This document shows, piece by piece, positions 2,424 through 39,602 of a stretch of DNA of 39,614 nucleotides. This DNA is from Deferribacteraceae bacterium (GTDB lineage: Bacteria > Chrysiogenota > Deferribacteres > Deferribacterales > JAISNW01). Made by a program: the position numbers and the translations under genes. The stretch is from the NCBI GenBank assembly GCA_031256375.1, contig JAIRQX010000127.1, positions 1 to 39,614 of the forward strand. The letters run 5' to 3'. Below the pieces are notes generated by a model, which was not told the origin of the DNA, did not search any database, and saw only the letters and a program-made list of their open reading frames with translations. How positions within the stretch are numbered: the stretch's first letter is position 1; each line of letters begins with the position of its first letter.

Positions 2424-3764
2424 TCAGCTTGTCAGTCCACCCTGAGATACAATCAAAACCTGCCCGGGATATATCCTCTTCGGATTAACCTTCGGATTTA
2501 GCTGCACCAAAGTATACAACGGTATATTATGCTGTCTGGATATTCTGTTAAAATTATCACCTTTGCGTACTATATAATATTTTGGGGCAAGGGTGGCAAT
2601 CTCCTTGGCAAAAGCTATATCATATTCGTTCAAAACTATACCGGACTTTGGTATAAAAAATATTTTGGATGTGTAAATCGTGTCGTAATTAAAATTGTTC
2701 AGCTTTTTAATTTCTTCCAGACTCACATTGTGCATTTTTGCGATCTTACTCAGATCATCGCCTGTTTTGGCTTGATAAATAATATATCGGGTAAGATCTG
2801 AACTATTATCCTGTATAAACGCTGTTGCAGTCTCTTTCATACCGTAGGGCACCCGCAGAGTGTATTTTTTTACAGGAGGGGTCATAGGGGTGCGAAGCGC
2901 CGGATTGAGATCTTTTAACTCCTCCGGAGAACAGCCCAGAATTTCAGCAATAACAAATATATTTACCTGACTGTCCAACTCCAAACTGTCAAATTGTAGC
3001 GGCAATATTTCATCATTCGGAGATTTAAAACCATATTCTTTAAGGTTGTTAAAGATAAGCAGATGCGCCAGATATTTCGGCACATAATCACGGGTTTCCG
3101 GTTTCAATGTGCGACCCGAGGCTATTTCAAAAAAATCTGTGGTACCGTGGGCTTTTGTAGCCCTTGTTATCTTGCCTGCCCCAGCATTATAAGCGGCAAG
3201 CGCCAAATACCAGTCGTTAAATATTTCATACAGATCATTCAGATGCTGCGCTGCGGCAAGCGTAGCCTTCTCAAAATCTCTGCGCTCGTCAACCCAGTCA
3301 TTTACTTCAAGTCCGTACATTTTACCCGTACCGCGCATAAACTGCCATATACCCGCAGCGCCCGCACGGGAGTACGCCCAAGGATTAAATCCGCTTTCGG
3401 TAAACGCAAGCGCTATAAGGTCCAGCGGCGCTCCTTCATTCTGAAATATATCCTTGACCAAATACATATACCTGTGCGATCTGTTCAGCCAATTTTGCAT
3501 AATTGGACGCCCTTTGCCGGTAAAATATGTAAGATAGTGCTGTACGCGCGGCGTTACAGTGACCGGCACGTTAAATTCCTCCAAAACTCCCTGCAAATGC
3601 TCATCAATTATTACAGCGCCATTTTCGTCAAAACGAACCTGAACCTTACCAAAATTTGACTGCTCCTTGCCATCCACTAAAACAGATACATCTGCCGCGG
3701 TCATATTAAAACCGGTAGAACAACCATAAATCAATAAAATTAACAATAATGTACATACCTTCAT
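2424..3764 (-). CDS. MltD-like membrane-bound lytic murein transglycosylase with two LysM domains
   Basis: This is a predicted lipoprotein that cleaves peptidoglycan glycan strands in the periplasm. The SLT domain contains ALAFTESGFNPWAYS with the catalytic Glu, then AGAAGIWQFM and ALAAYNAGAGKI. Two LysM repeats near the C terminus (YIIYQAKTGDDLSKIA and YYIVRKGDNFNRIS) bind peptidoglycan. The signal ends in a lipobox, LLIYGC. I chose ATG 3764 because an AGGAGG lies upstream, although its spacing is 16 bases. A GTG at 3812, overlapping the mscS stop as GTGA, would add 16 residues but has no visible ribosome-binding site. An in-frame ATT lies exactly 7 bases after the AGGAGG. It shares an operon with a second, MltB-type transglycosylase. 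Confidence 0.88.
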   Translation of the reverse strand: MKVCTLLLILLIYGCSTGFNMTAADVSVLVDGKEQSNFGKVQVRFDENGAVIIDEHLQGVLEEFNVPVTVTPRVQHYLTYFTGKGRPIMQNWLNRSHRYMYLVKDIFQNEGAPLDLIALAFTESGFNPWAYSRAGAAGIWQFMRGTGKMYGLEVNDWVDERRDFEKATLAAAQHLNDLYEIFNDWYLALAAYNAGAGKITRATKAHGTTDFFEIASGRTLKPETRDYVPKYLAHLLIFNNLKEYGFKSPNDEILPLQFDSLELDSQVNIFVIAEILGCSPEELKDLNPALRTPMTPPVKKYTLRVPYGMKETATAFIQDNSSDLTRYIIYQAKTGDDLSKIAKMHNVSLEEIKKLNNFNYDTIYTSKIFFIPKSGIVLNEYDIAFAKEIATLAPKYYIVRKGDNFNRISRQHNIPLYTLVQLNPKVNPKRIYPGQVLIVSQGGLTS

Positions 3765-6376: not shown

Positions 6377-7465
6377 TTATTCCGCTTCGTTTAACATCTC
6401 TGCCAAAAGCGCTACAGCCGCCGTATATTTTATATTGCCGTTATATCTGTGGATGGGACACGCATTTTCAAAAAAAACCACGGGAACAAAGCCGTTATTT
6501 TCCTTGTCCAGCTTTGCAAGAATTCCGCTTGCGTTATCCGGATACGTTTTATTGAAAACAACGCCTTTACTTTTAAGCGTTTTTACAGTTGCCCTTTTCT
6601 TAATGTCACATGATGAGATTCCGAAATCACTGTCAGGCAGAGATTGTTTTAGTGTAACTAACGCTATGGTGTTTTTGTCTCTTTCCCAGCCATGCTCTTT
6701 AAGGTAGAATGCTACGCTTTCAATCGCGTCATTGTGTGAAGATACTATATCAATCTGTCCGTCACCGTCGCCGTCCTTGCCGTATCTTAAAATATTGCTT
6801 GGCATGAACTGGGGTATGCCCACAGCGCCGGCATACGATCCCTTGTATGAAAGCGGATCTGTTTTTTCTTTATCAGCAAGAATAAATAGACTAATCAGCT
6901 CCTCTTTAAAATATTTTGACCGGCGCGGATATTCAAATGCTAGGGTAGCAAGACCTGTTAAAGCTGTTCTTTTGATCTCAACCTTTCCGTAGTTTGATTC
7001 AATGCCTATTATTGCCGAAACAGCATTAGGCGGCACCCCCCAGCGCATATATGCGCCGTCGAGAGCCGCTTTATTATCCTTTATGTATTTTTTCCCGTTA
7101 TCTATCCTTTCTTTTGAAATCAGTTTGCTGGAATATTCCGGCCAGTATTTCTTTTCTGACGGCATATTCATAAGCTCTATTACTTTGTTATCAAAATGAC
7201 TGCTGTCAAACGCTTTTGTTATAGTTTTTTTATCAAGTTTGTGTTTTATTGAAATATCGTTTATAAAATCCTGTACATCTTGGTATTCTGACATTTTTTT
7301 TGTTCTTGTTTTACTTTTGTTATCGGACGGGGATGTTGTATGTTTTTGGTCATTATTTTTGTTTGCAGGCGTTTCTGTTGTTTGTGAAACAGGCGAAACC
7401 GCAGTTGCGCAGGCGGCAAAACTTAATAAAATTATAAGGGCAGCAATTATCGCGCATTTTTTCAT
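6377..7465 (-). CDS. MltB-family lytic murein transglycosylase (SLT_2), lipoprotein
   Basis: A 362-residue predicted lipoprotein: the signal MKKCAIIAALIILLSFAAC ends in a lipobox with C19. A Ser/Thr/Lys-rich linker (about 25-57) follows. The SLT_2 catalytic domain has GIESNYG with catalytic E156, then the family segments YAGAVGIPQFMPSN and YGKDGDGDGQIDI, which resembles the EF-hand calcium site of Slt35/MltB. It cleaves peptidoglycan to 1,6-anhydromuropeptides. It is the first gene of the leftward operon, transcribed away from the putative origin. No strong Shine-Dalgarno is visible before the ATG. The companion MltD-like gene downstream suggests the operon has a cell-wall theme, but the Lar and epimerase genes do not fit it. 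Confidence 0.9.
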   Translation of the reverse strand: MKKCAIIAALIILLSFAACATAVSPVSQTTETPANKNNDQKHTTSPSDNKSKTRTKKMSEYQDVQDFINDISIKHKLDKKTITKAFDSSHFDNKVIELMNMPSEKKYWPEYSSKLISKERIDNGKKYIKDNKAALDGAYMRWGVPPNAVSAIIGIESNYGKVEIKRTALTGLATLAFEYPRRSKYFKEELISLFILADKEKTDPLSYKGSYAGAVGIPQFMPSNILRYGKDGDGDGQIDIVSSHNDAIESVAFYLKEHGWERDKNTIALVTLKQSLPDSDFGISSCDIKKRATVKTLKSKGVVFNKTYPDNASGILAKLDKENNGFVPVVFFENACPIHRYNGNIKYTAAVALLAEMLNEAE

Positions 7466-7507
7466 ACCAAGGATAAATTATTAATTTTTATCTGTTATGT
7501 CAAGCAC

Positions 7508-7513
7508 ATTATA
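7508..7513 (-). promoter_or_regulatory. candidate -10 box for the leftward mltB-lar operon
   Basis: Read on the minus strand, this is a perfect TATAAT, preceded by G-T-A-C-A and an A/T-rich spacer without a good -35 match. It would start an mRNA about 36 bases before the mltB-like ATG. A second possibility on the same strand is a TTGACA at about 7503-7498, but its matching -10 would sit almost on the ATG. Confidence 0.4.
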
Positions 7514-7680
7514 TGTACAAAAAATTGTGGAAAAAATTTTGAAACTTTTCGCATCATATTCTGAAAAAATTATACAATTGCTCTTTGTATGGCATAAAAA
7601 AATTAAGTGTTATTTTTTTAAACAACATATCCACAATTTTTTATAAACACATATTATTATTGCCTCTGTCTTTTTTTTAC

Positions 7681-7709
7681 TTGTCAACATAATCAAAAAC
7701 TGTTATCAT
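7681..7709 (+). promoter_or_regulatory. dnaN promoter, extended -10 type
   Basis: TTGTCA (7681-7686) matches the -35 consensus at five of six positions. A 17-base spacer leads to TATCAT (7704-7709), also five of six, preceded by TG one base upstream (TGTTATCAT), an extended -10. Transcription would begin near 7716, about 40 bases before the dnaN ATG. GAGG at 7743-7746 is the likely ribosome-binding site. Confidence 0.65.
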
Positions 7710-7757
7710 TAAGAATATATTTATTATAAAACAAATAAAAATGAGGATTACCTTAAC

Positions 7758-8867
7758 ATGAAATTTGCAATAAAAAAAGAAGCTATGTACCCTTTGCTTC
7801 AGTACGCTATCAATTTTACCTCTTTAAAAAATATTAACCAGATTTTACAAAACGTCCTGATAGAGGCTGCTGATAACAGGGTATTTTTAAAAACCACCAG
7901 TTTCCAGACAGGATTTAGCTGTAAGATAGATGCGGATATAATCAGTTTCGGGTTAACAACCGTACCGGCAAAAATCCTTTGTGACATAATAAAGGCTATC
8001 CCTGACGAGAGTGTGATAGATTTCATTTTTGAAGGTTCAGCGCTTAATATAAAGACAGGTAGAACCAGTTATCAGCTTCCTACTATGGATGCAACCCTTT
8101 TTCCGAACAGCCCTGCAATTACTCCTGAATACTCATTTGAAATAAAAGCGGGTCAGTTTTTATCACTGCTTAAAAGAGTTGCTTTTTGTATATCAAGCGA
8201 TACTTTAAAAACTGAGTATAATGGAGCCCACATGAACATTGTAGCTGACAAGATAGAGTTGTCGTCAGCTGACTTTCAGCGTATTGCCACTACCTCAGCT
8301 ACCTTTGAGAACGCGTTTTCTGATGAATTTACTGTAAACATACCGAAGAAAACGGTTTTTGATATAATAAAAATATTTGAAAACGCAGAAAAGATCAGAG
8401 TTATTACTGATAAGCGGCAAATTTCTTTCAGCACAGATAATATTACGATAACATCAAGGCTTATAGAAAAATATATTAAAAGCATAACAAGGCTATTTTT
8501 GGCTGAATACAAGCTAAAAGCGATAATGAACCGTGAAAAACTAATCGGGGTTGTAAAACGTATTGCCCCGATCACAAGTGAGCTGACGCACGGACTGCTT
8601 TTTTCATTCCAAAATTCCCAACTGACGGTCACCAGCCCGGAAACTGAAAATGGCAAAGGTACAGAAATTATGGATGGCATTGAATTTGAAGGGGAAAACA
8701 TAGATATAGTTTTTAACGCAAAACATCTTTTAGAGATACTTTCAAATATTGATTCCCCTGAGGTTGTTTTTGCAATGAATGCAAAAACTCAGCCGGCGCT
8801 TATACTGCCTGTTAATGACTGCGTTAAGTATTTATTAGTTCCTATATCAATAGAAAAAATTACCTGA
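7758..8867 (+). CDS. dnaN: DNA polymerase III beta subunit (sliding clamp)
   Basis: This 369-residue protein has the full length of a bacterial beta clamp, a ring-shaped dimer that tethers DNA polymerase III to DNA. It shows the usual three-domain pattern. Recognisable clamp segments are NVLIEAADNRVFLKTT near the N terminus, GRTSYQLPTMDATLFP in the first domain, KIELSSADFQRIA in the second, and a C terminus ending CVKYLLVPISIEKIT, close to the hydrophobic pocket that binds polymerase and other partners. Sequence conservation is low, as is normal for DnaN. recF begins 3 bases after the stop. It heads the origin-type cluster dnaN-recF-gyrB-gyrA. Confidence 0.93.
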   Translation: MKFAIKKEAMYPLLQYAINFTSLKNINQILQNVLIEAADNRVFLKTTSFQTGFSCKIDADIISFGLTTVPAKILCDIIKAIPDESVIDFIFEGSALNIKTGRTSYQLPTMDATLFPNSPAITPEYSFEIKAGQFLSLLKRVAFCISSDTLKTEYNGAHMNIVADKIELSSADFQRIATTSATFENAFSDEFTVNIPKKTVFDIIKIFENAEKIRVITDKRQISFSTDNITITSRLIEKYIKSITRLFLAEYKLKAIMNREKLIGVVKRIAPITSELTHGLLFSFQNSQLTVTSPETENGKGTEIMDGIEFEGENIDIVFNAKHLLEILSNIDSPEVVFAMNAKTQPALILPVNDCVKYLLVPISIEKIT

Positions 8868-8870
8868 TAA

Positions 8871-12284
<3,414 letters not shown>

Positions 12285-12285
<1 letters not shown>

Positions 12286-12386: not shown

Positions 12387-12402
12387 TGTTTCACGTGAAA
12401 CA
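12387..12402. promoter_or_regulatory. parS centromere site (ParB binding)
   Basis: The 16-base perfect palindrome TGTTTCACGTGAAACA is identical to the bacterial parS consensus bound by chromosomal ParB. It lies 18 bases before the gyrA ATG, inside the gyrA leader. A second identical copy is at 23305-23320. Such sites cluster around replication origins. The ParA and ParB genes are not in the window. Confidence 0.92.
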
Positions 12403-12420: not shown

Positions 12421-14874
12421 ATGAGTGAGTTGGAAATCCTTAAACCGATCCCTATAGATATAGTAGAAAAGGTTGGAGATTCCTATATGGAATACTCAAT
12501 GAGCGTTATAGTGGGTAGGGCGTTGCCTGATGTCCGGGATGGATTAAAACCCGTTCACCGGCGGGTGCTTTTTGCTATGCACGAAATGGGGCTGGATCAC
12601 ACCAAACGGCATCGTAAATCTGCGCTAGTAGTGGGCGAGGTAATGGGTAAATATCATCCGCACGGAGATTCGGCGATTTATGATACCCTTGTACGTATGG
12701 CGCAAACTTTTTCACTCCGTTATCCGTTAGTGGATGGACAGGGGAATTTTGGCTCAGTTGACGGGGATATGCCCGCAGCTATGCGTTATACAGAATCGCG
12801 CATGCAGAAGATAGCCGCAGAGCTTCTTGCTGATATTGATAAAAACACGGTGGATTTCACCCCCAACTATGAATCCTCACTTGAAGAGCCGGTAGTATTA
12901 CCCGCCCGCATCCCAAACCTTCTTATTAACGGTTCAAGCGGTATAGCGGTAGGAATGGCTACAAATATCCCCCCGCACAATCTGACAGAGATTATGGACG
13001 CGCTGATACTCAAGATAGATAACCCCTCCGAAACGGAAAGCGATATTCTTGGTATTGTAAAAGGTCCTGACTTCCCGACAGGCGCGATTATTATGGGGCG
13101 ATCCGAGATAGCAAAGGCATATAAAACCGGCAGAGGTTCTGTCAAAATACGTTCAAAAGTAGAGGTGGAACCGCTTAAAAACGGAAGGGAGCAGATTATT
13201 GTTACAGAGATCCCTTATCAGGTAAACAAGGCGGCGCTGATTGAAAAGATTGCCGAACTTGTGCAGGAGAAAAAGATCACCGGTATTTCAGATCTGTGGG
13301 ATTTGTCAGACAGCAAAATCCGTATAGTAATAGAGCTTAAAAGGGGGGAGGTAGCTGAAGTTATCCTTAATCAGCTTTATAAATTTACCCCGCTTGAAAC
13401 AAGTTTTGGTATTAATATGGTGGTGTTGATAGGCGGCAGACCTAAGCTTGCTACACTGACTGAGATATTAGACGAGTTTTTAGCTCACCGGATTGTTGTG
13501 GTTACCCGCCGGACATCGTATATGCTTAAAAAAGCGGAAGAACGGCTGCATATTATAGAGGGGCTAAGGGTCGCGGTTGAGAATATCGATGAAGTTGTTG
13601 CGGCAATCAAAAACTCCGCCGATTCACAACAAGCTAAAGAGAAGCTAAGAGAACGCTATAAACTTTCCGAAACTCAGGCTCAGGCTATAATGGAAATGCG
13701 TCTCTCCCGCCTGACCGGTCTTGAAATTAACAAACTTAACACGGAGTATGAAACCCTGCTAAAGGACATTGAACGGTTTAATTTTATTCTCGCGAATAGG
13801 GCTGCCCTTATGGGTGTAATCAGGGGGGAGTTTGAGGAGATTAAAAAGGGTTACGGCGACAGTCGCCTTACGGAGATAACTGATGAGGCGGGAGAGTTTG
13901 AAACGCTTGATCTTATACCAAACGATGATATGGCGGTTACTATTACTCACGCTGGGTATATTAAACGTACCCCCCTTTCTAACTTTACCGCGCAGAAACG
14001 TGGTGGTAAAGGTAAAAGCGGCGCCGCTTCAAGGGTTGACGACTTTATAGAGCAGCTCCTTGTTACAGCAAATCACTCTCAGCTTCTTTTCTTTACAAAA
14101 AGCGGGCGTCTTCACTTTCTGGATGTGTATAAACTGCCGGAAATGAACAGGGACACAAAAGGTAGACATATATCAAATTTTATCTCCGTTGAGGGGGAGG
14201 ATAAGGTTGCTTCTATTCTTACCGTTGCCGGCAAAGATGACAACAGATCAGTTATTCTGGCGACCCGTAAAGGGGAGATTAAACGCATAGGCATTACAGA
14301 GTTCAGAAGCGGCAGAAGCGGAATGTTTGTGATAAAACTTGATGATGGAGACGAACTTGTGGCATCTCTTTTAACGGATGAAAACGACAAGATATTTATG
14401 GCGTCAAAACAGGCGAAAAGTATACAATTTTTGGCAAAAGATATCAGACAGAGCAAACGCGGCTCCGGGGGCGTGCGCGGAATGAGACTGGGCGCTGATG
14501 ATGCGGTTGTTTCTGTAGCGGTTATAACTGATCAGGGGGATATTATGACTGTTACCGCAAACGGTTACGGTAAACGTACCTTGATAAGCGAGTATCGCGA
14601 ACAGTCACGCGGCGGTTCCGGTTTAAAACTATGCAAAGTAACCCCAAAGACAGGCGCTGTGGTGTCGGCTATTCAGGTTCAGCCCACGGATGACATCATG
14701 ATGATAACGAAAAATGGCAAAACAATACGCTTTACTGTTTCCGGCATATCGGTTATTGGCAGGGGAACGCAGGGCGTTAAACTTATGGAGACGGACGGTG
14801 ATGAGATTATCTCTGCCGCGGTTGTGCGCGATGACGGCGGAGTTTCTGAGGAGTGCAACACCGCGGAGGTATGA
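12421..14874 (+). CDS. gyrA: DNA gyrase subunit A
   Basis: The DNA-cleaving subunit of gyrase, 817 residues. It begins with the breakage-reunion domain, including [20 protein letters not shown] and [10 protein letters not shown] with catalytic Y123. The quinolone-determining region reads [11 protein letters not shown], with S84 and D88, the usual susceptible residues. The C-terminal beta-pinwheel contains the GyrA box as QKRGGKG, the element needed for DNA wrapping and negative supercoiling, so this is GyrA rather than ParC. The end is short, without a long acidic tail. An AAAGGTG ribosome-binding site precedes the ATG, downstream of the parS site. folD starts 64 bases after the stop. Confidence 0.97.
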
Positions 14875-19716: not shown

Positions 19717-21465
19717 TTAATCGGCGTTTACAAAAATCGGATTTGTATAGAACCATAAATCCTTAAACGGTTTATCTTCTGTGTTTGTACCCCTTACAGA
19801 ATCAAACGGGGTATCAACTAACGGATTGCCGTTACTGTCGGTTAGACCGGATGTATTTGGGGCAAGATTTGTGCCGCGAAGGCGGTAGTATGTATTTTTG
19901 TCGGTTTCTGGCATGGTATAGGTTATGTGGCAGACTCCGTTTTCATCCGTATCCCATTCAGTAAAAGTCGTAACAATCCGCGTTGTTGTAACAGAATCCA
20001 CTGTGTAGTCCGCAGCTTTGCCGGTTACTTCGCCTGCTATTAGGTCAATATGGTGCACTACTGGTTTGTCGTTAAGTGAGTAGCGCCCGTCAGTGTTAGC
20101 GTTGTTTCTGTTGGGAGATTTGAAAGAGATGGTAATTACTGTCTCCGCATTTGCCGCGCCGGATACAGTTTCCCCCATAGTAGCTGAACTGTTGTCAACT
20201 TTTATGTTATAATCAAGATAATTAATAAGGTCGCCCAACACACTGTAAGTGTTACCGGAGCGCATACCGTCAAGGATACCCTGATAACTCTTTTCTTCTA
20301 CAAAGGTATATATTTTTGAATATTCGCCGGGCCAGTAATCAGGTTCACCACCGCCTGCAATGTTTGTATGGAAGTCTGAGTTGCCGAAAATCCAGTAATG
20401 TCTGCCTTCGCTTAAAAGCGCGTCCCAAACGCCACCTATAATGGCGGCGTAAAAATCGGCGCCGCCGTATGTTCTGAGTTTCGGGACGCTTTTGATCAGC
20501 GAATCCAAAATCTCTGCTTTTGTGGTATCCGGATCTGTATTCGAGATGTAATTGTCCACCATTTCCTCAAGCGTATTGGCAGTACCGGGTGATAGTTGAA
20601 CAATTTTACCGAGATTGCTGTCGTAGTAATAGAAACGTGCTAATCCGCCGCGGAAAGCCGATTTTTGATGTCCGGGCAACATTTCAGACCCAAAGAACAC
20701 ATCAGGAGCTTCATCGTTCAGTTCGCGGATCTCCTTTATCAGCCAACCGCTGCCCGCTCCCGCGAGCATTCTTGTTGGGTGGTTTGGAAGAAAATAGCTT
20801 GTTTTTGCAAAATTGTTCTGAAGCCATCTTGCGGCTTCCAAAGATTTTGCCTGATTATTCACTGTATTTTTTGTAATTCTGGAAGCGTCCGCAATGGTGC
20901 GCATTTCTGGATTCAAATCAGTGACGCTTGACGAATCGCTTGCGTCAAAAAGATACTCAAAAAGCGCAAGATTTCTTCTTGATGTATCGTTATCGCCTAC
21001 AATCCCAACGCTTGCATGCTCGTGTCCGGGAGCGTTCATTTCAAATCCGTTAAATTGAAGTATTGATTGACGGTTTTGCTTTATTTTCTCAAAAGCCTCC
21101 CCCAGAATCGTCTCCCATCTGAACCTGTCGCCAACGTCATCTCCGTCATCGTTACGGTTGAACTTGCCTCCGTGGTCAGTCGCCGCATACCAGTCAAGCC
21201 CGTATTCAACAGCTTTCGCCGCGACTTGGGCGGCTCTGTATGAACCATCTGAAATGTTGGTATGCGAGTGGAAATCCCCAGTCACCCAGTATCCGACTTT
21301 CTTAACTTCCGAAGAATTGTTGTCTGAAGAATTGTCTTCTGTAGTAATGTTTCCTGAAGAATCGTTTCCTGAAGAGTTGTTTCCTGAACAAGAAAAAATC
21401 ATCACAGACATTGTTACTGCGAGCGCGATAACGCCGATTATTTTGACTGCATTTTTTATAACCAT
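19717..21465 (-). CDS. CehA/McbA-like PHP-domain metallohydrolase, lipoprotein
   Basis: A predicted secreted or lipid-anchored metal-dependent phosphoesterase-like enzyme, 582 residues from ATG 21465. I chose this start because AAGGAGGG lies just before it; an upstream start at 21498 would add 11 residues and lacks this. The signal ends with the lipobox MIFSC. A Ser/Asn/Asp-rich linker of about 30 residues follows. The PHP domain has GDFHSHTNISDGSY, ATDHGG, GHEHASVGIVG, NHPTRM and, later, GNSDFHTN, giving the expected His and Asp metal ligands. The C-terminal third (from about 410) looks like a beta-sandwich domain. The substrate is unknown. It opposes the neighbouring genes and may be its own transcription unit. 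Confidence 0.8.
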   Translation of the reverse strand: MVIKNAVKIIGVIALAVTMSVMIFSCSGNNSSGNDSSGNITTEDNSSDNNSSEVKKVGYWVTGDFHSHTNISDGSYRAAQVAAKAVEYGLDWYAATDHGGKFNRNDDGDDVGDRFRWETILGEAFEKIKQNRQSILQFNGFEMNAPGHEHASVGIVGDNDTSRRNLALFEYLFDASDSSSVTDLNPEMRTIADASRITKNTVNNQAKSLEAARWLQNNFAKTSYFLPNHPTRMLAGAGSGWLIKEIRELNDEAPDVFFGSEMLPGHQKSAFRGGLARFYYYDSNLGKIVQLSPGTANTLEEMVDNYISNTDPDTTKAEILDSLIKSVPKLRTYGGADFYAAIIGGVWDALLSEGRHYWIFGNSDFHTNIAGGGEPDYWPGEYSKIYTFVEEKSYQGILDGMRSGNTYSVLGDLINYLDYNIKVDNSSATMGETVSGAANAETVITISFKSPNRNNANTDGRYSLNDKPVVHHIDLIAGEVTGKAADYTVDSVTTTRIVTTFTEWDTDENGVCHITYTMPETDKNTYYRLRGTNLAPNTSGLTDSNGNPLVDTPFDSVRGTNTEDKPFKDLWFYTNPIFVNAD

Positions 21466-21731
21466 TTTTCCCTCCTTGGTTATTTTGTGTTTAAACAAGT
21501 AACATTAAGATATGAAAATAAAATCAACTTATTGAGAAATTATAATCAAATTACAAACAAATCTTGGTAAAATGAATGTATAGATTTTGTTATTTTTCGG
21601 GTGAAAAGTTTGAAGCTTTACGGATAGCAATTTTAATGCTTTAATAAAAGCGCTAAGTTGGTATCGTAAGATTGTATGAATTGATAGAAATAATCTGCTT
21701 TTTGAAATTGATTTATCTGATATTGGGGATT
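21466..21731. other. divergent intergenic region
   Basis: 266 AT-rich bases separate the leftward PHP-family gene from the rightward outer-membrane-like gene. Only the ribosome-binding sites at each end stand out: AAGGAGGG before the leftward ATG and GGGG before the rightward one. No convincing promoter pair, hairpin or RNA gene was found. Confidence 0.4.
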
Positions 21732-23304: not shown

Positions 23305-23320
23305 TGTTTCACGTGAAACA
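23305..23320. promoter_or_regulatory. second parS centromere site
   Basis: TGTTTCACGTGAAACA, identical to the site at 12387-12402 and to the parS consensus. It ends 14 bases before the mnmG ATG, so it lies in the leader of the mnmG-rsmG operon, a location often seen for parS in bacteria where parAB follow rsmG. Here parAB do not follow. Confidence 0.92.
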
Positions 23321-25178: not shown

Positions 25179-25769
25179 ATGCTTGAGCGGTATCTTGATT
25201 TAAATGATGAAACGAAAAAAAAGTTCAACCTGTTTTACGATTTGGTTGTAAGTAGTCCTGTTAATCTGACCGCGATTAAAGGTAAAGATGAATTTGCTTT
25301 AAAGCACATTTATGACAGTTTATATTTCTTTCTGAAGAGGTCGCTGAAAATAAATACGCTTGCCGATATCGGTAGCGGCGGTGGCTTCCCGGGACTGGCG
25401 CTTGCCGTTTATTTCAGTGACTGGCAGATAACGCTTATAGAGAGCATCGGCAAGAAGTGCCGTTTTCTTGAAAATGCAACGCAAAAGCTGGAACTTGCCA
25501 ATGTGCGGGTAATTAACTCAAGAGCGGAGAATATCCCCCCCTCCGGATATGACATCGTCACCGCGCGAGGGGTGGGAAGCGTAAAAGAATTATTGAAAAA
25601 TACTGCCCATTTAGTGCATGATAGGGGTGCATGGTTGATTTATAAAGGGGAGCGTGTAAATGAAGAGCTTAGGGATGCTAAACCTATCCTAAATAAAAGA
25701 GGTATAAAAAGTGAATTATTACGAGTTGAAACGCCGTTTACAAGGTCTTATCTGCACCTTTATTATTAG
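25179..25769 (+). CDS. rsmG: 16S rRNA (guanine-527-N7) methyltransferase RsmG (GidB)
   Basis: RsmG methylates G527 of 16S rRNA using S-adenosylmethionine. The 196-residue protein is at the short end of the family. It has the segment VNLTAIKGKDEFALKHIYDSL, then the SAM-binding motif LADIGSGGGFPGLALAV, IESIGKKCRFLENA, and VTARGVGSV. The ATG is 2 bases after the mnmG stop, the classic gidA-gidB pair. Its last 59 bases overlap the start of the next gene in another frame. Confidence 0.95.
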   Translation: MLERYLDLNDETKKKFNLFYDLVVSSPVNLTAIKGKDEFALKHIYDSLYFFLKRSLKINTLADIGSGGGFPGLALAVYFSDWQITLIESIGKKCRFLENATQKLELANVRVINSRAENIPPSGYDIVTARGVGSVKELLKNTAHLVHDRGAWLIYKGERVNEELRDAKPILNKRGIKSELLRVETPFTRSYLHLYY

Positions 25770-27156
25770 CGTTTTTTTGATAGGGTGCGTACAAAATGCA
25801 GCCTATATTCCGGGGAGTGTTGAAGTTTTCAGTCCTCAGTTCTATATTCTAAAAAAGGTTGAAAAATCTGATTATGACAGACTGGAAAAATTGCGGATGT
25901 CTAAAAATTCACAGACAGCCGCTTCTGCCAGTCTTATTCTGGGGATATATTATCTGCGGTATGATAAAAATATAGCAAAGGCGGAGCCGTTGTTAGTTAA
26001 TGGTTATGCCGGCAAAAATTTAGATCCTTATATGAAGCGTATGGGAGAACTTTGGCTTATGGAACTTGAAATTGCCAAAGGTCGTAACGCTGAAGCGAGA
26101 GGTTGGGCTGAAAAGGTCAGAACAGAAAAAGATAATGCTCCTGCGGATGAAGCGTTGCAGACGTATTGTACGATTATGCGCTTACTGCCTTCTGCCGGGA
26201 GCGGGAATTTTAATTGTGTTGAAACAAGGCTGAGAACTTCTGCTGAAAAACCGTCAATAGTAAAGCCGTTTGAAACGCCAAAAGGAACGTTGAATATACT
26301 TGTGGTTGGCGGCGCAGACCCGCAGGATGCAAGTGGCGGGGTATATTTTTACGCAAAAAAATATAATATGAATCATAGAACCCGTTTATCTAAAACTTAC
26401 CGCGAGGGCGATTGGGATTTTGTAGTTGATATAGATAACTCTATACTTACAGGTCGTGGCTATACGATCAATTTTAAGCCAGATGTCAGCGGAATGTTTT
26501 TAAATATGAAAAATCTCCCGATGATTAACGGATGCGGGAAAATATTTTTAGGTTATGGTAAAGAGATGCGTGATACGGCATACGAACTTTTGAATAACCT
26601 TAAAAACATAATGCCAGCCGGAACAACTTATGTGGCGCGGGTAACAGATATAAGCGAAAGTGGGGCAGCGCGTAGAATACGCGAACACCTTAGCGGCTGG
26701 GAAAGGACGCCATATTGCGCCATAGGCGCGGGAATTGAAGATGAGATAAATAATTTCACCCCGTATGTAAAGCAGTATTTCCTGCGACCGGGTTCACAGC
26801 GGGTATTTATAATCAAACCAATTGATACAGGGAAACATTACAGTGAGAATTATTTGCCATATTATGCCAATACATATCTTTTCCCTATCATAGATTTTAA
26901 TCTGACCCCGGAGATGCAGGATTTTTCCGTTAAATATAAAGAGTTTTCCGGCAGGGAGATCACGTATGAGACGCTCATCGGATATGATATGATGCATTAT
27001 ATCCATACACAGACTATGGCGCAGGGGGGCGCTATCGATCCGTATATTACAAATATTACCGGTTTTGACGGAGGGAAGGCGGTGAGGAGCGTCAGAGTAT
27101 TTTATATTAATAAACAGGGTGAGGCGGAATCTGTTGTATTTGAAAATATAAAATAA
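25711..27156 (+). CDS. lipoprotein with helical repeats and a periplasmic-binding-protein-like domain (LpoA-like)
   Basis: A 481-residue predicted lipoprotein starting at GTG 25711, with AGAGG 8 bases upstream, inside the end of rsmG (59-base overlap). The signal ends in the lipobox FLIGC with C26. Residues about 50-160 have Ala-rich paired helices like TPR repeats. From about 188 the sequence resembles a type I periplasmic-binding fold: GTLNILVVGGADPQDASGG, then, near the end, EITYETLIGYDMMHYI, FDGGKAVRSVRVFYI. TPR plus this fold is the layout of penicillin-binding-protein activators such as LpoA, so a role in peptidoglycan synthesis is plausible but unproven. I do not recognise a named family by specific motif. 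Confidence 0.7.
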   Translation: MNYYELKRRLQGLICTFIISVFLIGCVQNAAYIPGSVEVFSPQFYILKKVEKSDYDRLEKLRMSKNSQTAASASLILGIYYLRYDKNIAKAEPLLVNGYAGKNLDPYMKRMGELWLMELEIAKGRNAEARGWAEKVRTEKDNAPADEALQTYCTIMRLLPSAGSGNFNCVETRLRTSAEKPSIVKPFETPKGTLNILVVGGADPQDASGGVYFYAKKYNMNHRTRLSKTYREGDWDFVVDIDNSILTGRGYTINFKPDVSGMFLNMKNLPMINGCGKIFLGYGKEMRDTAYELLNNLKNIMPAGTTYVARVTDISESGAARRIREHLSGWERTPYCAIGAGIEDEINNFTPYVKQYFLRPGSQRVFIIKPIDTGKHYSENYLPYYANTYLFPIIDFNLTPEMQDFSVKYKEFSGREITYETLIGYDMMHYIHTQTMAQGGAIDPYITNITGFDGGKAVRSVRVFYINKQGEAESVVFENIK

Positions 27157-34984: not shown

Positions 34985-35130
34985 GAAATAACCGAGGCAA
35001 ATTCCAATTCTATATTAAGTAACAGAAAAATATTCACTATCATCTTTATTACGCAATAATACACAATAGTAGGTTTACTTGATATATCCGTAGGATTGTG
35101 ATAATACAATTTTATACGGAGAGTGCGCGT
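34985..35130. other. intergenic leader of the restriction-modification operon
   Basis: The gap holds ATTCCAATTCTA (35001-35012), identical to the start of the long hairpin between gyrB and gyrA, but without its matching second arm. A possible promoter has TTGATA (35079-35084) and GATAAT (35100-35105), the latter with an upstream TG (extended -10), at a short 15-base spacing. GGAGAG (35118-35123) is the ribosome-binding site for the next gene. Confidence 0.4.
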
Positions 35131-37545
35131 ATGTTGGGAGCGATCGTAGGAGATATCGTTGGTTCACGGTTCGAGTGGAACAATATAAAAACAAAAGAAT
35201 TTGACTTTCTTACTTACCATTGTAATTTTACAGACGATAGCATTATGACTCTTGCTGTTTCCCAAGCGATTCTCAAAACTAATGGTAACTACAATAAGTT
35301 AAGTGATCTTGCGATTAAATATATGCGTGAAATCGGAAGACCATATCCGAATTGTGGCTACGGTGGTATGTTTCGGCAATGGATTTATTCGGAAAATCCC
35401 AAACCATACAACAGTTTTGGCAATGGTGCGGCAATGCGCATATCCGCTTGCGGTTTCACGGCAAAAACGCTTGATGATGTCAAACTGTCCTCCCGCAAAA
35501 TAACAGAAGTTACCCATAACCATCCTGAAGGGATTAAGGGTGCGGAAGCTACCGCCGTTTGCATATTTCTCGCGCGCGAAGGCAAAAACATCCTTGAAAT
35601 ACGCGACTATATAGACACTCATTATTACCCAATGAATTTTACACTTGATGGAATCCGCGACAGTTACCGGTTTAATGAAACATGTCAAGAGACAGTACCA
35701 CAAGCTATAATGGCATTTCTTGAATCCGATGGTTTCGAGGATGCTATCCGAAATGCTATATCAATCGGTGGTGACAGCGATACGCTTGCGTCCATAACTG
35801 GAGGAATAGCTGAAGCTTATTACGGTATACCTGTGGAAATACGCAAACACGCTCTGACATTTCTCGACGAGCGTCTTTTAAAAATTTTGACAGAATTTGA
35901 GAATGTTTACCCTCCAGCGTTTGAAAAGAAAACAAAAAATAAAAATATCAAGGTGAACGGACAAAAACGCAATATAAATGGTAATTCCCGTGAAGAGATG
36001 ATACACTTGTTATTTGATAATACTGACGAGGATTATCAAGCATCTCACCCATATTATGAGGAAACGACAAGCCAAGAACTATTCCGGCATCTGTTTGAAG
36101 CGTGCAACATTCTTCGCGGACCAATAAATCAAGATGAATACAAAAGCTATGTTACACCTATTTTATTTTTTAAACGCCTTTCCGATGTGTATGACGAAGA
36201 AACAATAAAAGCTCTTGAAGAATCCGGAGGTGATGAGGAATACGCCGCATTACCTGATTACCATTACTTTTTTATCCCTGAAGGTTGTCATTGGAATGAT
36301 GTACGAAATACACATGAAAATGTTGGTAAAGCTATTGTAAGCGCAATAATGGGCATTGAGCGCGCTAATCCGGACACATTGAATGGTGTGTTTTCCAGTT
36401 TTGATGATGCAAACTGGACAGATAAAGGCAAGTTCTCTGATGAACGTCTGAAAAACCTTGTAGAGCACATGTCTAAAATCAAAGTTGGCAACGAAAACTA
36501 TTCAACGGATGTAATGGGGGACGCTTATGAATATTTGATAAAGAAATTTGCTGATTTGTCTAAAAAGAACGCTGGCGAGTTTTATACACCACGCCCGATT
36601 GTTAAACTACTTGTAATGCTTCTCTCACCAAAAGCAGGTGAAACTGTATATGATCCTGCATGTGGTACGGGAGGAATGTTAATAGAGGCTATTCGCTACA
36701 TACACAACGACAAATTAACTTATGGCAAAATATATGGACAAGAGAAAAATCTTACAAATTCATCTATTGCGCGGATGAACTTATTTTTGCATGGCGCAAA
36801 AGATTGCAAAATATCGCAAGGTGATACGCTCCGCTCACCAAATTTTCATATTTCAGGCAGTTTACAAACATTCAACTGTGTGATTGCTAATCCTCCATTT
36901 TCATTGAAAAAATGGGGAGCTGAGCAATTTTCAAATGATGTGTATGGGCGTAATTTATGGGGTAGCCCTACCGATAGCAACGCCGATTTTGCTTGGCTTC
37001 AACACATGGTGCAATCAATGGACAGTGAAAACGGGCGACTGGCTGTTATTTTGCCGCAGGGAGCGTTATTTCGAGGCGGCAAAGAAGGGAGTATCCGCAA
37101 AGCAATGATTGAATCGGATAAACTTGAATATGTTATAGCGTTGGTAGGCGGTATATTCTATTCATCAGGCGTGTCAGCGTGTGTTCTTGTATTAAATAAT
37201 AATAAATCTAATTACCATAGCGGAAAAGTATGTCTGGTTGATGCGTCTAAAATCTATACAGCTCAACGGGCACAGAATATTATGTCCGAAAAAAATGTTA
37301 TGGAAGTGTATAATCTATGCGCCAATTATGTAGATGTACTTGAAAAATCCAAAATAGTCACACTTGATGATATTCGCTCGAAGGATTATTCCCTATCAGT
37401 AAGCGGTTATATTGAAAAAGCAGCGCAGACAACCATATCACCCGCTGAAGTACGCAAAATGTTTTTTTCTGCGCTTGAAGCCGCTCAAGCTGCTGAAGAA
37501 AAACTCAAAACATTGCTTAAAGAACACGGATACCTCAATGAATAG
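35131..37545 (+). CDS. ADP-ribosylglycohydrolase fused to type I restriction-modification methyltransferase subunit (HsdM)
   Basis: An 804-residue fusion from ATG 35131, with GGAGAG 7 bases upstream; a GTG at 35098 would add 11 residues. Residues 1 to about 260 form a complete ADP-ribosylglycohydrolase (DraG-like) domain: GAIVGDIVGSRFEW, metal-binding FTDDS (33-37), GNGAAMRISACGF, THNHPEGIKGAEA and GGDSDTLASITGG (213-225). A Lys/Asn-rich linker (about 264-288) follows. Then comes an HsdM: N-terminal helical domain from about 313 (QELFRHLFEACNILRG), SAM motif DPACGTGGM and catalytic NPPF (587-590). HsdM methylates adenine as part of a type I complex. The domains join in one frame with no stop between them. 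A second HsdM gene overlaps its end by 8 bases. Confidence 0.9.
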   Translation: MLGAIVGDIVGSRFEWNNIKTKEFDFLTYHCNFTDDSIMTLAVSQAILKTNGNYNKLSDLAIKYMREIGRPYPNCGYGGMFRQWIYSENPKPYNSFGNGAAMRISACGFTAKTLDDVKLSSRKITEVTHNHPEGIKGAEATAVCIFLAREGKNILEIRDYIDTHYYPMNFTLDGIRDSYRFNETCQETVPQAIMAFLESDGFEDAIRNAISIGGDSDTLASITGGIAEAYYGIPVEIRKHALTFLDERLLKILTEFENVYPPAFEKKTKNKNIKVNGQKRNINGNSREEMIHLLFDNTDEDYQASHPYYEETTSQELFRHLFEACNILRGPINQDEYKSYVTPILFFKRLSDVYDEETIKALEESGGDEEYAALPDYHYFFIPEGCHWNDVRNTHENVGKAIVSAIMGIERANPDTLNGVFSSFDDANWTDKGKFSDERLKNLVEHMSKIKVGNENYSTDVMGDAYEYLIKKFADLSKKNAGEFYTPRPIVKLLVMLLSPKAGETVYDPACGTGGMLIEAIRYIHNDKLTYGKIYGQEKNLTNSSIARMNLFLHGAKDCKISQGDTLRSPNFHISGSLQTFNCVIANPPFSLKKWGAEQFSNDVYGRNLWGSPTDSNADFAWLQHMVQSMDSENGRLAVILPQGALFRGGKEGSIRKAMIESDKLEYVIALVGGIFYSSGVSACVLVLNNNKSNYHSGKVCLVDASKIYTAQRAQNIMSEKNVMEVYNLCANYVDVLEKSKIVTLDDIRSKDYSLSVSGYIEKAAQTTISPAEVRKMFFSALEAAQAAEEKLKTLLKEHGYLNE

Positions 37546-39031
37546 ACGTATTACTCTTGAAGAACTTAAGAATTATCTGTGGGGTTCTGCTGTTTTGCTA
37601 CGGACTCATATAGACGCAGTTTCGTATAAACAGTATATATTTCCACTATTGTTTTTCAAACGAATTAGCGATGTTTACGATGAAGAACATAAAGCTACTA
37701 TTGAACAATACGGTGATGAAGAAGCGTTAGATTTTCCCGAAAACCATCGTTTTGTTATACCAAAAGGTTTTCATTGGCGTAATGTGCGTGAAGCGCATGA
37801 AAATGTCGGTGTGGCAATAGTAAACGCTTTTCGTTCAATAACGCGGGCAAACGTAGAAAAGCTTTCCGACGTTTTTGGTGATGGAGCGTGGACAAACAAA
37901 AACCGCCTGTCTGATGAGCTATTGAAAAACCTTATTGAGCATTTTTCTATGTTTACGCTTTCAATAGAAAACTGTCCGGAGGATGAACTTGGTCAGGGTT
38001 ACGAATATCTTATTCGTAAATTTGCTGATGATAGCGGTCATACGGCGCAAGAGTTTTACACCAATCGTACGGTCGTCCATCTGATGACCGAAATTCTGAA
38101 ACCTCAATCAGGGGAGGCTATTTACGATCCTACATGCGGAAGCGCAGGGATGTTGATTTCGGCGATAGCATATTTGAAGGCGCATGAAAAGGAGTGGCGT
38201 AATGTAAAAATCTACGGACAGGAAATTAACGCTCTGACTTCTGCGATTGCCCGCATGAACTTGTTTTTGCATGGTGTAAAAGATTTTACTATTGTCAATG
38301 ATGACACATTGATTGCGCCAGCGTTTATAGAGAACGGTCAATTACAACAATTTGATATGATAGTTGCTAATCCGCCATACTCCATCAAGCAGTGGAACAG
38401 AGAGTCTTTTGCAGGTGACAAATATGGGCGCAACATTCTGGGAACACCACCGCAAGGGCGCGCTGATTATGCTTTCTTTCAACATATTCTTAAAAGCCTT
38501 AACCCTTATACGGGAAGGTGCGCTATACTCTTTCCTCACGGGGTATTATTCCGTAACGAGGAAAGCGCTTTGCGTGAGAAGTTAATTGTTTCCGATCTGG
38601 TAGAGTGTGTTATTGGCTTAGGCGCTAATCTGTTTTATAACTCTCCGATGGAAGCGTGTATTGTTATTTGCCGGACTAACAAGCGTCCTGAGTATCGCGG
38701 ACAAATTCTATTAATAAACGCGGTAAACGAGGTTACACGCAAAAGTGCGCATAGTTGGCTGGATAACTCGCACATAATAAAGATTGCGGATGCCTATGAA
38801 CGATATATTGATATTGATAATTTTGCCAAAGTGATAACCATTAAAGACGCTGAAAAGAATGGCTGGTCATTATCAATACCGCTGTACATCCGAGAAACTT
38901 CTGTTGGAAAAGTAGTAGACAATCGCTCTGTAACGGAGTGCGCGTCCGCATGGCTTGACGCCGCATTTGACACAAAGATGGCGTATGGGGATTTAAAAAC
39001 ACTGTTGGAGGATGGAAACAATGAGGGTTAA
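37538..39031 (+). CDS. hsdM: second type I restriction-modification methyltransferase subunit (HsdM)
   Basis: A 497-residue N6-adenine DNA methyltransferase subunit starting at ATG 37538, which overlaps the end of the fusion gene as ATGAATAG. It has the N-terminal HsdM domain (VSYKQYIFPLLFFKRISDVYDEE), EFYTNRTVV, the SAM-binding DPTCGSAGM (197-205), the catalytic NPPY (278-281), and the HsdM sequence GRADYAFFQHIL. It is a paralogue of the methyltransferase half of the preceding protein, but the two differ throughout, including NPPY against NPPF. An HsdS-like gene starts within its end (11-base overlap). It could pair with the fusion protein as a heterodimer. Confidence 0.95.
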   Translation: MNRRITLEELKNYLWGSAVLLRTHIDAVSYKQYIFPLLFFKRISDVYDEEHKATIEQYGDEEALDFPENHRFVIPKGFHWRNVREAHENVGVAIVNAFRSITRANVEKLSDVFGDGAWTNKNRLSDELLKNLIEHFSMFTLSIENCPEDELGQGYEYLIRKFADDSGHTAQEFYTNRTVVHLMTEILKPQSGEAIYDPTCGSAGMLISAIAYLKAHEKEWRNVKIYGQEINALTSAIARMNLFLHGVKDFTIVNDDTLIAPAFIENGQLQQFDMIVANPPYSIKQWNRESFAGDKYGRNILGTPPQGRADYAFFQHILKSLNPYTGRCAILFPHGVLFRNEESALREKLIVSDLVECVIGLGANLFYNSPMEACIVICRTNKRPEYRGQILLINAVNEVTRKSAHSWLDNSHIIKIADAYERYIDIDNFAKVITIKDAEKNGWSLSIPLYIRETSVGKVVDNRSVTECASAWLDAAFDTKMAYGDLKTLLEDGNNEG

Positions 39032-39602
39032 GTTTGGAGACGTAGCAAAAGAAAGCCGCGAAATGCTGCGTGGCAGCAAGCGCGGTCTACCGATCGTTGG
39101 TCTTGAACACCTTATCCCTTGTGAACTATTATTAACTGCATGGGATATTGATAACGATAATACATTTACAAAAATTTTTCGCAAAAAACAAATGTTGTTC
39201 GGTCGCCGGAGGGCATATCTAAAAAAAGCTGCCGTTGCGCCTTTTGACGGAATTTGTTCTGGCGATATAACCGTGATTGAAGCTATACCTAACAAACTAT
39301 TGCCAGAATTGCTACCGTTTATTATACAAAACGATACATTCTTCGATTATGCTGTCGGAAAATCAGCTGGTTCGCTTTCTCCGCGTGTAAAATGGGAGCA
39401 TCTGAGCCATTTTGAATTTTACCTGCCTTCGCTTGATGAACAGCGTAAACTTGCTGAATTACTTTGGTCAGCAAATGCCGCAAAAGAAGCGTACAAAAAG
39501 TTGCTTGTTTTGACGGATGAAATGTGCAAATCGCGGTTTTGTGTTCGGTATATAGGGCAAACGCTAATTTTCATAAAAAGAAGGTTACAATATGCAGTAT
39601 AA
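39021..39602 (+). CDS. hsdS: half-size type I restriction-modification specificity subunit (HsdS)
   Basis: A 193-residue protein with one target-recognition domain and one conserved helical spacer, against two of each in standard HsdS (about 400 residues). I chose ATG 39021 because GGAGG (39007-39011) lies 9 bases upstream; an ATG at 39012 abuts the GGAGG. Recognisable segments are FGDVAKESRE, IVGLEHL, MLFGRRRAYLKKAAVAPFDGICSGDI, SAGSLSPRVKWEHL and the coiled-coil LPSLDEQRKLAELLWSANAAKEAYKKL. The last 18 or so residues after KSRF do not resemble the family and may follow a small frameshift. It would direct the M subunits to half of a DNA target. Confidence 0.85.
   Translation: MRVKFGDVAKESREMLRGSKRGLPIVGLEHLIPCELLLTAWDIDNDNTFTKIFRKKQMLFGRRRAYLKKAAVAPFDGICSGDITVIEAIPNKLLPELLPFIIQNDTFFDYAVGKSAGSLSPRVKWEHLSHFEFYLPSLDEQRKLAELLWSANAAKEAYKKLLVLTDEMCKSRFCVRYIGQTLIFIKRRLQYAV

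Follow-up and report, generated by a model that had tools for sequence, protein, structure and literature searches.

In bacteria of the order Deferribacterales, where does chromosome replication start when dnaA does not lie beside dnaN? The question is raised by an AT-rich gap in front of dnaN in a genome of the insect-gut family Termitispirillaceae (family f1 in this study). The window used for the analysis is a whole contig (C59) of 39,614 bases, from an assembly of 1,946,024 bases in 128 contigs that is 95.6% complete. Family f1 includes genome G001, which is MS499-41, a member of the insect-gut clade Termitispirillaceae (GTDB JAISNW01), sister to Mucispirillaceae (PMC12887300). A preliminary description of the window had proposed the gap as a candidate origin (oriC) without an adjacent dnaA.

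The gap between mltB and dnaN

The features identified in and around the gap are listed in Table 1. The gap is bordered by the start of mltB on the minus strand (7465) and the start of dnaN on the plus strand (7758), and its composition agrees with the AT-rich gap of the preliminary description. Scans for AT-richness and boxes took in 87 contigs (1.09 Mb, 56% of the genome). Windows of 292 nt as AT-rich as the gap made up about 0.7% of the scanned sequence and were found at 20 places. The gap was the only place in the 1.09 Mb where a GC content of 26% or less occurred together with two DnaA boxes at one mismatch or fewer; with scans of this coverage, a competing origin may still be present in another part of the genome.

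Table 1. Features of the gap and its surroundings in the 39,614-nt window.
Feature	Position	Strand	Basis or remark
MltB-type lytic transglycosylase gene (SLT_2), left border of gap	6377..7465	-	Pfam
Candidate oriC gap, AT-rich, intergenic	7466..7757	.	21.6% GC, 292 nt
DnaA-box-like TTTTCCACA	7526..7534	-	Box search of gap; 1 mismatch to TTATCCACA
DnaA-box-like ATATCCACA	7627..7635	+	Box search of gap; 1 mismatch to TTATCCACA
Weak box TTATAAACA then trio-like ATA-TTA-TTA-TTG, possible alternative unwinding module	7641..7662	+	Close behind box 7627
Box-like TTGTCAACA of the order-wide conserved element	7681..7689	+	Includes -35 TTGTCA
Degenerate DnaA-trio position TTA-TCA-TTA-AGA	7703..7714	+	13 nt after box; overlaps -10 TATCAT (7704-7709)
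dnaN (beta clamp)	7758..8867	+	Pfam
recF-type ATPase gene	8871..9893	+	Pfam search, synteny
gyrB	9904..12285	+	Pfam search
Perfect parS 16-mer TGTTTCACGTGAAACA	12387..12402	.	
gyrA	12421..14874	+	Pfam search
Perfect parS 16-mer	23305..23320	.	

Analysis of the gap recovered the two opposed DnaA-box-like nonamers that had been described earlier, and a 13-nt extension, TCCACAATTTTTT, was found to be common to both. Dinucleotide shuffles of the gap contained a mean of 0.14 boxes at one mismatch or fewer, and the probability of two or more was 0.0065 (about 0.007). Two boxes ending in TCCACA were reached in none of 2000 shuffles. The box search of the whole window gave 12 matches against 11.3 expected, so that single boxes carry no meaning and it is the pair within the AT-rich gap that counts. 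An AT-rich intergenic region with clustered DnaA boxes is therefore present beside dnaN, and two good boxes are few for an oriC.

Genes to the left of the gap all lie on the minus strand and those to the right nearly all on the plus strand, the single minus-strand ORF there being located at 19717-21498. With this one exception, the switch from leftward to rightward genes noted previously was found as stated. The plus-strand order is dnaN, recF, gyrB, gyrA, folD and mnmE, with mnmG and rsmG further on, and synteny comparison revealed that the order dnaN-recF-gyrB-gyrA-folD-mnmE-mnmG is kept across Deferribacterales. No Rfam families or tRNAs were found in the window. The ORF after rsmG (25711-27156, 481 aa) has no Pfam match, and its tblastn relatives are also located behind rsmG at loci L111 and L120. 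Another ORF (35098-39602, 815 aa) carries an ADP-ribosylglycohydrolase domain fused to HsdM and overlaps a second HsdM ORF, which is followed by HsdS-like sequence.

Perfect parS sites occur only twice in the 1.95 Mb assembly, and both copies (12387 and 23305) are in the window, near the gap. In relatives with parS the site lies about 9-15 kb from the dnaN start; only in G018 was an additional copy found, on a second contig. The genome possesses parB, on a contig other than C59. Order-wide synteny and the two parS sites bear out the statement that dnaN-recF-gyrB-gyrA with parS represents an origin-type neighbourhood.

Location of dnaA in the genome and in the order

No dnaA was found in the window, as had been noted from the letters. 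A single full-length copy (445 aa) with all three DnaA Pfam domains is present on contig C58 (4,647 bases), followed by argH. Hence the dnaA adjacency of a classical dnaA-oriC-dnaN locus is lacking, and this fragmented assembly gives a distance of about 7.5 kb or more between dnaA and the gap. By the usual rule that oriC adjoins dnaA, the origin would be on C58, and the contig does carry an exact TTATCCACA and, at a distance of 36 nt, a TTATCAACA. These lie within the dnaA coding sequence, however, whereas the 308 nt upstream of the gene contain no box at one mismatch and C58 has no parS. Furthermore, dnaA and the skew turning point are apart in family f5, and argH beside dnaA is not common to relatives; an origin on C58 is thus extremely improbable. 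The absence of argH beside dnaA in relatives also led to rejection of argH-dnaA as an ancestral linkage.

Comparison of the families revealed that dnaA adjoins dnaN in f2, f3, f4, f6 and f7 and in G011 of f8, and is apart from dnaN in f1 and in all f5 genomes searched. In the DnaA+DnaN tree, f1 pairs with f6 (support 0.99) and f5 comes next (0.93). Since f6 retains the dnaA-dnaN pair, the tree suggests that dnaA probably departed from dnaN twice, apparently independently in f1 and f5. The dnaN-side origins of f5 (Geovibrio/Denitrovibrio/Seleniivibrio-type) resemble the window in the separation of dnaA, in an element at dnaN and in parS about 9-15 kb away. They differ in showing clear replication skew and near-intact trios, and their dnaA displacement appears from the tree to be independent.

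The preliminary description had called an origin without dnaA unusual. Set beside the textbook case this is true; such a layout has nevertheless been published for cyanobacteria and occurs throughout f5. Cyanobacteria usually have oriC next to dnaN, with TTTTCCACA boxes, and carry dnaA elsewhere (PMC6323995, PMC7198777), TTTTCCACA being the cyanobacterial DnaA box (PMC6323995). Compared with the cyanobacterial oriC (Synechococcus elongatus; DoriC), the window is alike in its dnaN-side candidate origin, separate dnaA and TTTTCCACA-type box, and differs in its low number of good boxes (two), in the recF-gyrB-gyrA cluster alongside and in the parS sites close by. The S. elongatus origin is experimentally proven, and that of the window is predicted from sequence. 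A dnaN-side origin without dnaA is therefore a layout already known from cyanobacteria and also found in f5; the literature searched contained no paper on a Denitrovibrio origin.

The left neighbour of dnaN is distinct in each of five f1 genomes: mltB, a zinc-binding-type ABC gene, uvrA, an xerD-like gene and an RNase J-like gene (neighbour identities in the dnaN gaps of G001, G003 and G004 were read from translations). These varied neighbours fit extensive rearrangement in the family. AT-rich gaps are retained in G003 and G004, with TTTTCAACA sites. In G001 only about 100 nt separate uvrA from dnaN (L081, 9600-10000) and no DnaA-box-like site was found there; in this ectosymbiont the origin has possibly changed place. 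The left edge of the dnaN gap in f1 (7465 in the window; L071, L081, L210 and L211) is a recurrent rearrangement breakpoint.

The conserved element upstream of dnaN

Comparative analysis revealed CTTGT(C/A)AACA upstream of dnaN in f3, f5, f7 and f8, followed after about 13 nt by a TATTATTACTAC-like sequence. The pattern CTTGTMAACA-N13-17-TATTAYTA gave exactly one match per genome in 7 relatives from 5 families, each just before dnaN, and a reversed-pattern control gave zero matches. The element stays at dnaN in f5 although dnaA is about 155-320 kb away in the f5 genomes with both genes on one contig. The strict element is absent from G016 of the sister family f6. In the window and in G002 the box and the promoter are kept and the trio positions are degenerate. 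The window (7627-7635), G002, G034 and G032 each have a box-like site roughly 43-45 nt ahead of CTTGTCAACA.

In f3, f5, f7 and f8 the element has both the form of a box-spacer-trio (BUS) module and that of a TTGTCA-17-TATTAT promoter. A BUS is defined by a box with at most 2 mismatches, a spacer of 0-16 nt and at least 3 consecutive NAN trios (PMC8287927). Such a module is known from Bacillus subtilis and from many oriCs; f3, f7 and part of f5 resemble it in having a box with at most 2 mismatches, a 13-nt spacer and at least 4 trios. The window has such a box in TTGTCAACA, with the trio position 13 nt downstream, and differs in having fewer than three consecutive trios at the conserved position. 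Weaker alternatives with at least three trios occur at 7641-7662 and also on the minus strand, the best score having a P of 0.035 in comparison with shuffled gaps.

A dnaN promoter, TTGTCA-17-TATCAT, is likely present in the same stretch. Conservation of the core could have causes other than an origin, since the core makes a good sigma-70 promoter as well. The gap could be no more than a divergent mltB/dnaN promoter region; its box-like sites would then let DnaA control dnaN, or have no meaning, and the origin would be elsewhere in the genome. The promoter of the window matches 10 of 12 with an extended TG, the conserved core of the relatives has the 17-nt promoter spacing, the trio tract of the window is degenerate and the related G001 lacks the gap, all of which would suit such a promoter. 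Conservation in f3, f5, f7 and f8, however, extends beyond the -10 into TATTATTACTACTATT-like sequence, both parS sites are near the gap, and in f5 the element is at dnaN, where the skew of G021 also turns; in G032 the turning point is 20-36 kb from the element, and in both genomes it is distant from dnaA. On balance, we consider a promoter without an origin unlikely.

GC skew and the proposed working of the probable origin

Cumulative G-C within the window has its minimum at 7857. The base counts cited in the preliminary description (20 C and 9 G at 3301-3360; 11 G and 8 C at 11761-11820) were exact on recount; the conclusion drawn from them, that the skew shows diverging replication, was not borne out. 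Of the 41 contigs in the same genome with a length of 12 kb or more, 12 showed a skew flip with both sides beyond 0.03. When genes were split by strand (28 contigs), the coding-strand effect came to about 0.10 and the replication effect, corrected for noise, to 0.010. Because the gene-strand effect explains the skew, the flip in the window is what gene directions alone would give, and it was rejected as evidence of an origin.

The identical method gave a replication effect of 0.066 in G032 and 0.037 in G021. At third positions only, the value was 0.032 in the source genome against 0.047 in G021; this contrast is weak, so the statement of low replication skew rests on all positions. The turning points of the skew were read from 20-kb samples of G021 and G032 rather than whole chromosomes (the source genome being fragmented). 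In G021 the plus-strand skew is negative or near zero up to dnaN (156.6-157.7 kb) and positive after, with a minimum near 156.0 kb; the sign changes within about 1-2 kb of dnaN, and dnaA (position 7) is no turning point. In G032 the change occurs between 3.02 and 3.036 Mb, which is 20-36 kb away from dnaN (3.056 Mb); dnaA, at position 42, is inside a uniformly positive stretch.

Termitispirillum cryptocerci has a SkewI of 0.176 against 0.733-0.914 in other Deferribacterota, for which non-canonical replication or rearrangement was suggested (PMC12887300). Our results, from a second genus, suggest that odd GC skew is common to the insect-gut family. The gap might then be a decayed ancestral origin in a family that starts replication at several sites or non-canonically, which would explain the lost skew. 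The low replication effect relative to G032 and G021, the SkewI of Te. cryptocerci, the degenerate trios and the left neighbour of dnaN differing in five of five family genomes are in line with such decay. Against these stand the presence of dnaA and parB, the retention of parS and boxes, and the fact that frequent rearrangement alone would erase skew, and we regard a decayed origin as very unlikely. A link between dnaA detachment, trio decay and family-wide loss of replication skew, which would mean that initiation is relaxed or non-canonical (with several or variable start sites) and not that genomes are merely rearranged, is likewise rather improbable.

Overall, our analysis suggests that the gap is probably the chromosomal oriC, in its ancestral place upstream of dnaN-recF-gyrB-gyrA, with dnaA moved elsewhere. 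Position, parS and the conserved element make an origin the best explanation, and skew is no part of this basis. The earlier oriC reading stands as regards neighbourhood, parS and boxes, with the conserved element at the skew turning point in G021 and about 20-36 kb from it in G032 in addition, but without its argument from GC skew in the window. For the working of such an origin we infer that DnaA from the distant gene would bind three sites, namely the two opposed boxes (7526 and 7627) and, at 7681, the box-like TTGTCAACA. It would spread onto the adjoining AT-rich DNA, either at the degenerate trio position 13 nt downstream or at the alternative tract 7651-7662, and would open this DNA for helicase loading and initiation. 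ParB on the nearby parS sites would then segregate the new origins. With a likely dnaN promoter in the same stretch, DnaA binding could also regulate dnaN.

The element occurring once per genome points to dnaN as the site of the origin in a little-studied phylum, and dnaA appears to have gone from the origin in two families, apparently independently. The results also serve as a warning that local skew flips do not locate the origin in such genomes. Furthermore, they bear on the question raised in PMC12887300 of whether the insect-gut clade shares the skew of Termitispirillum cryptocerci.
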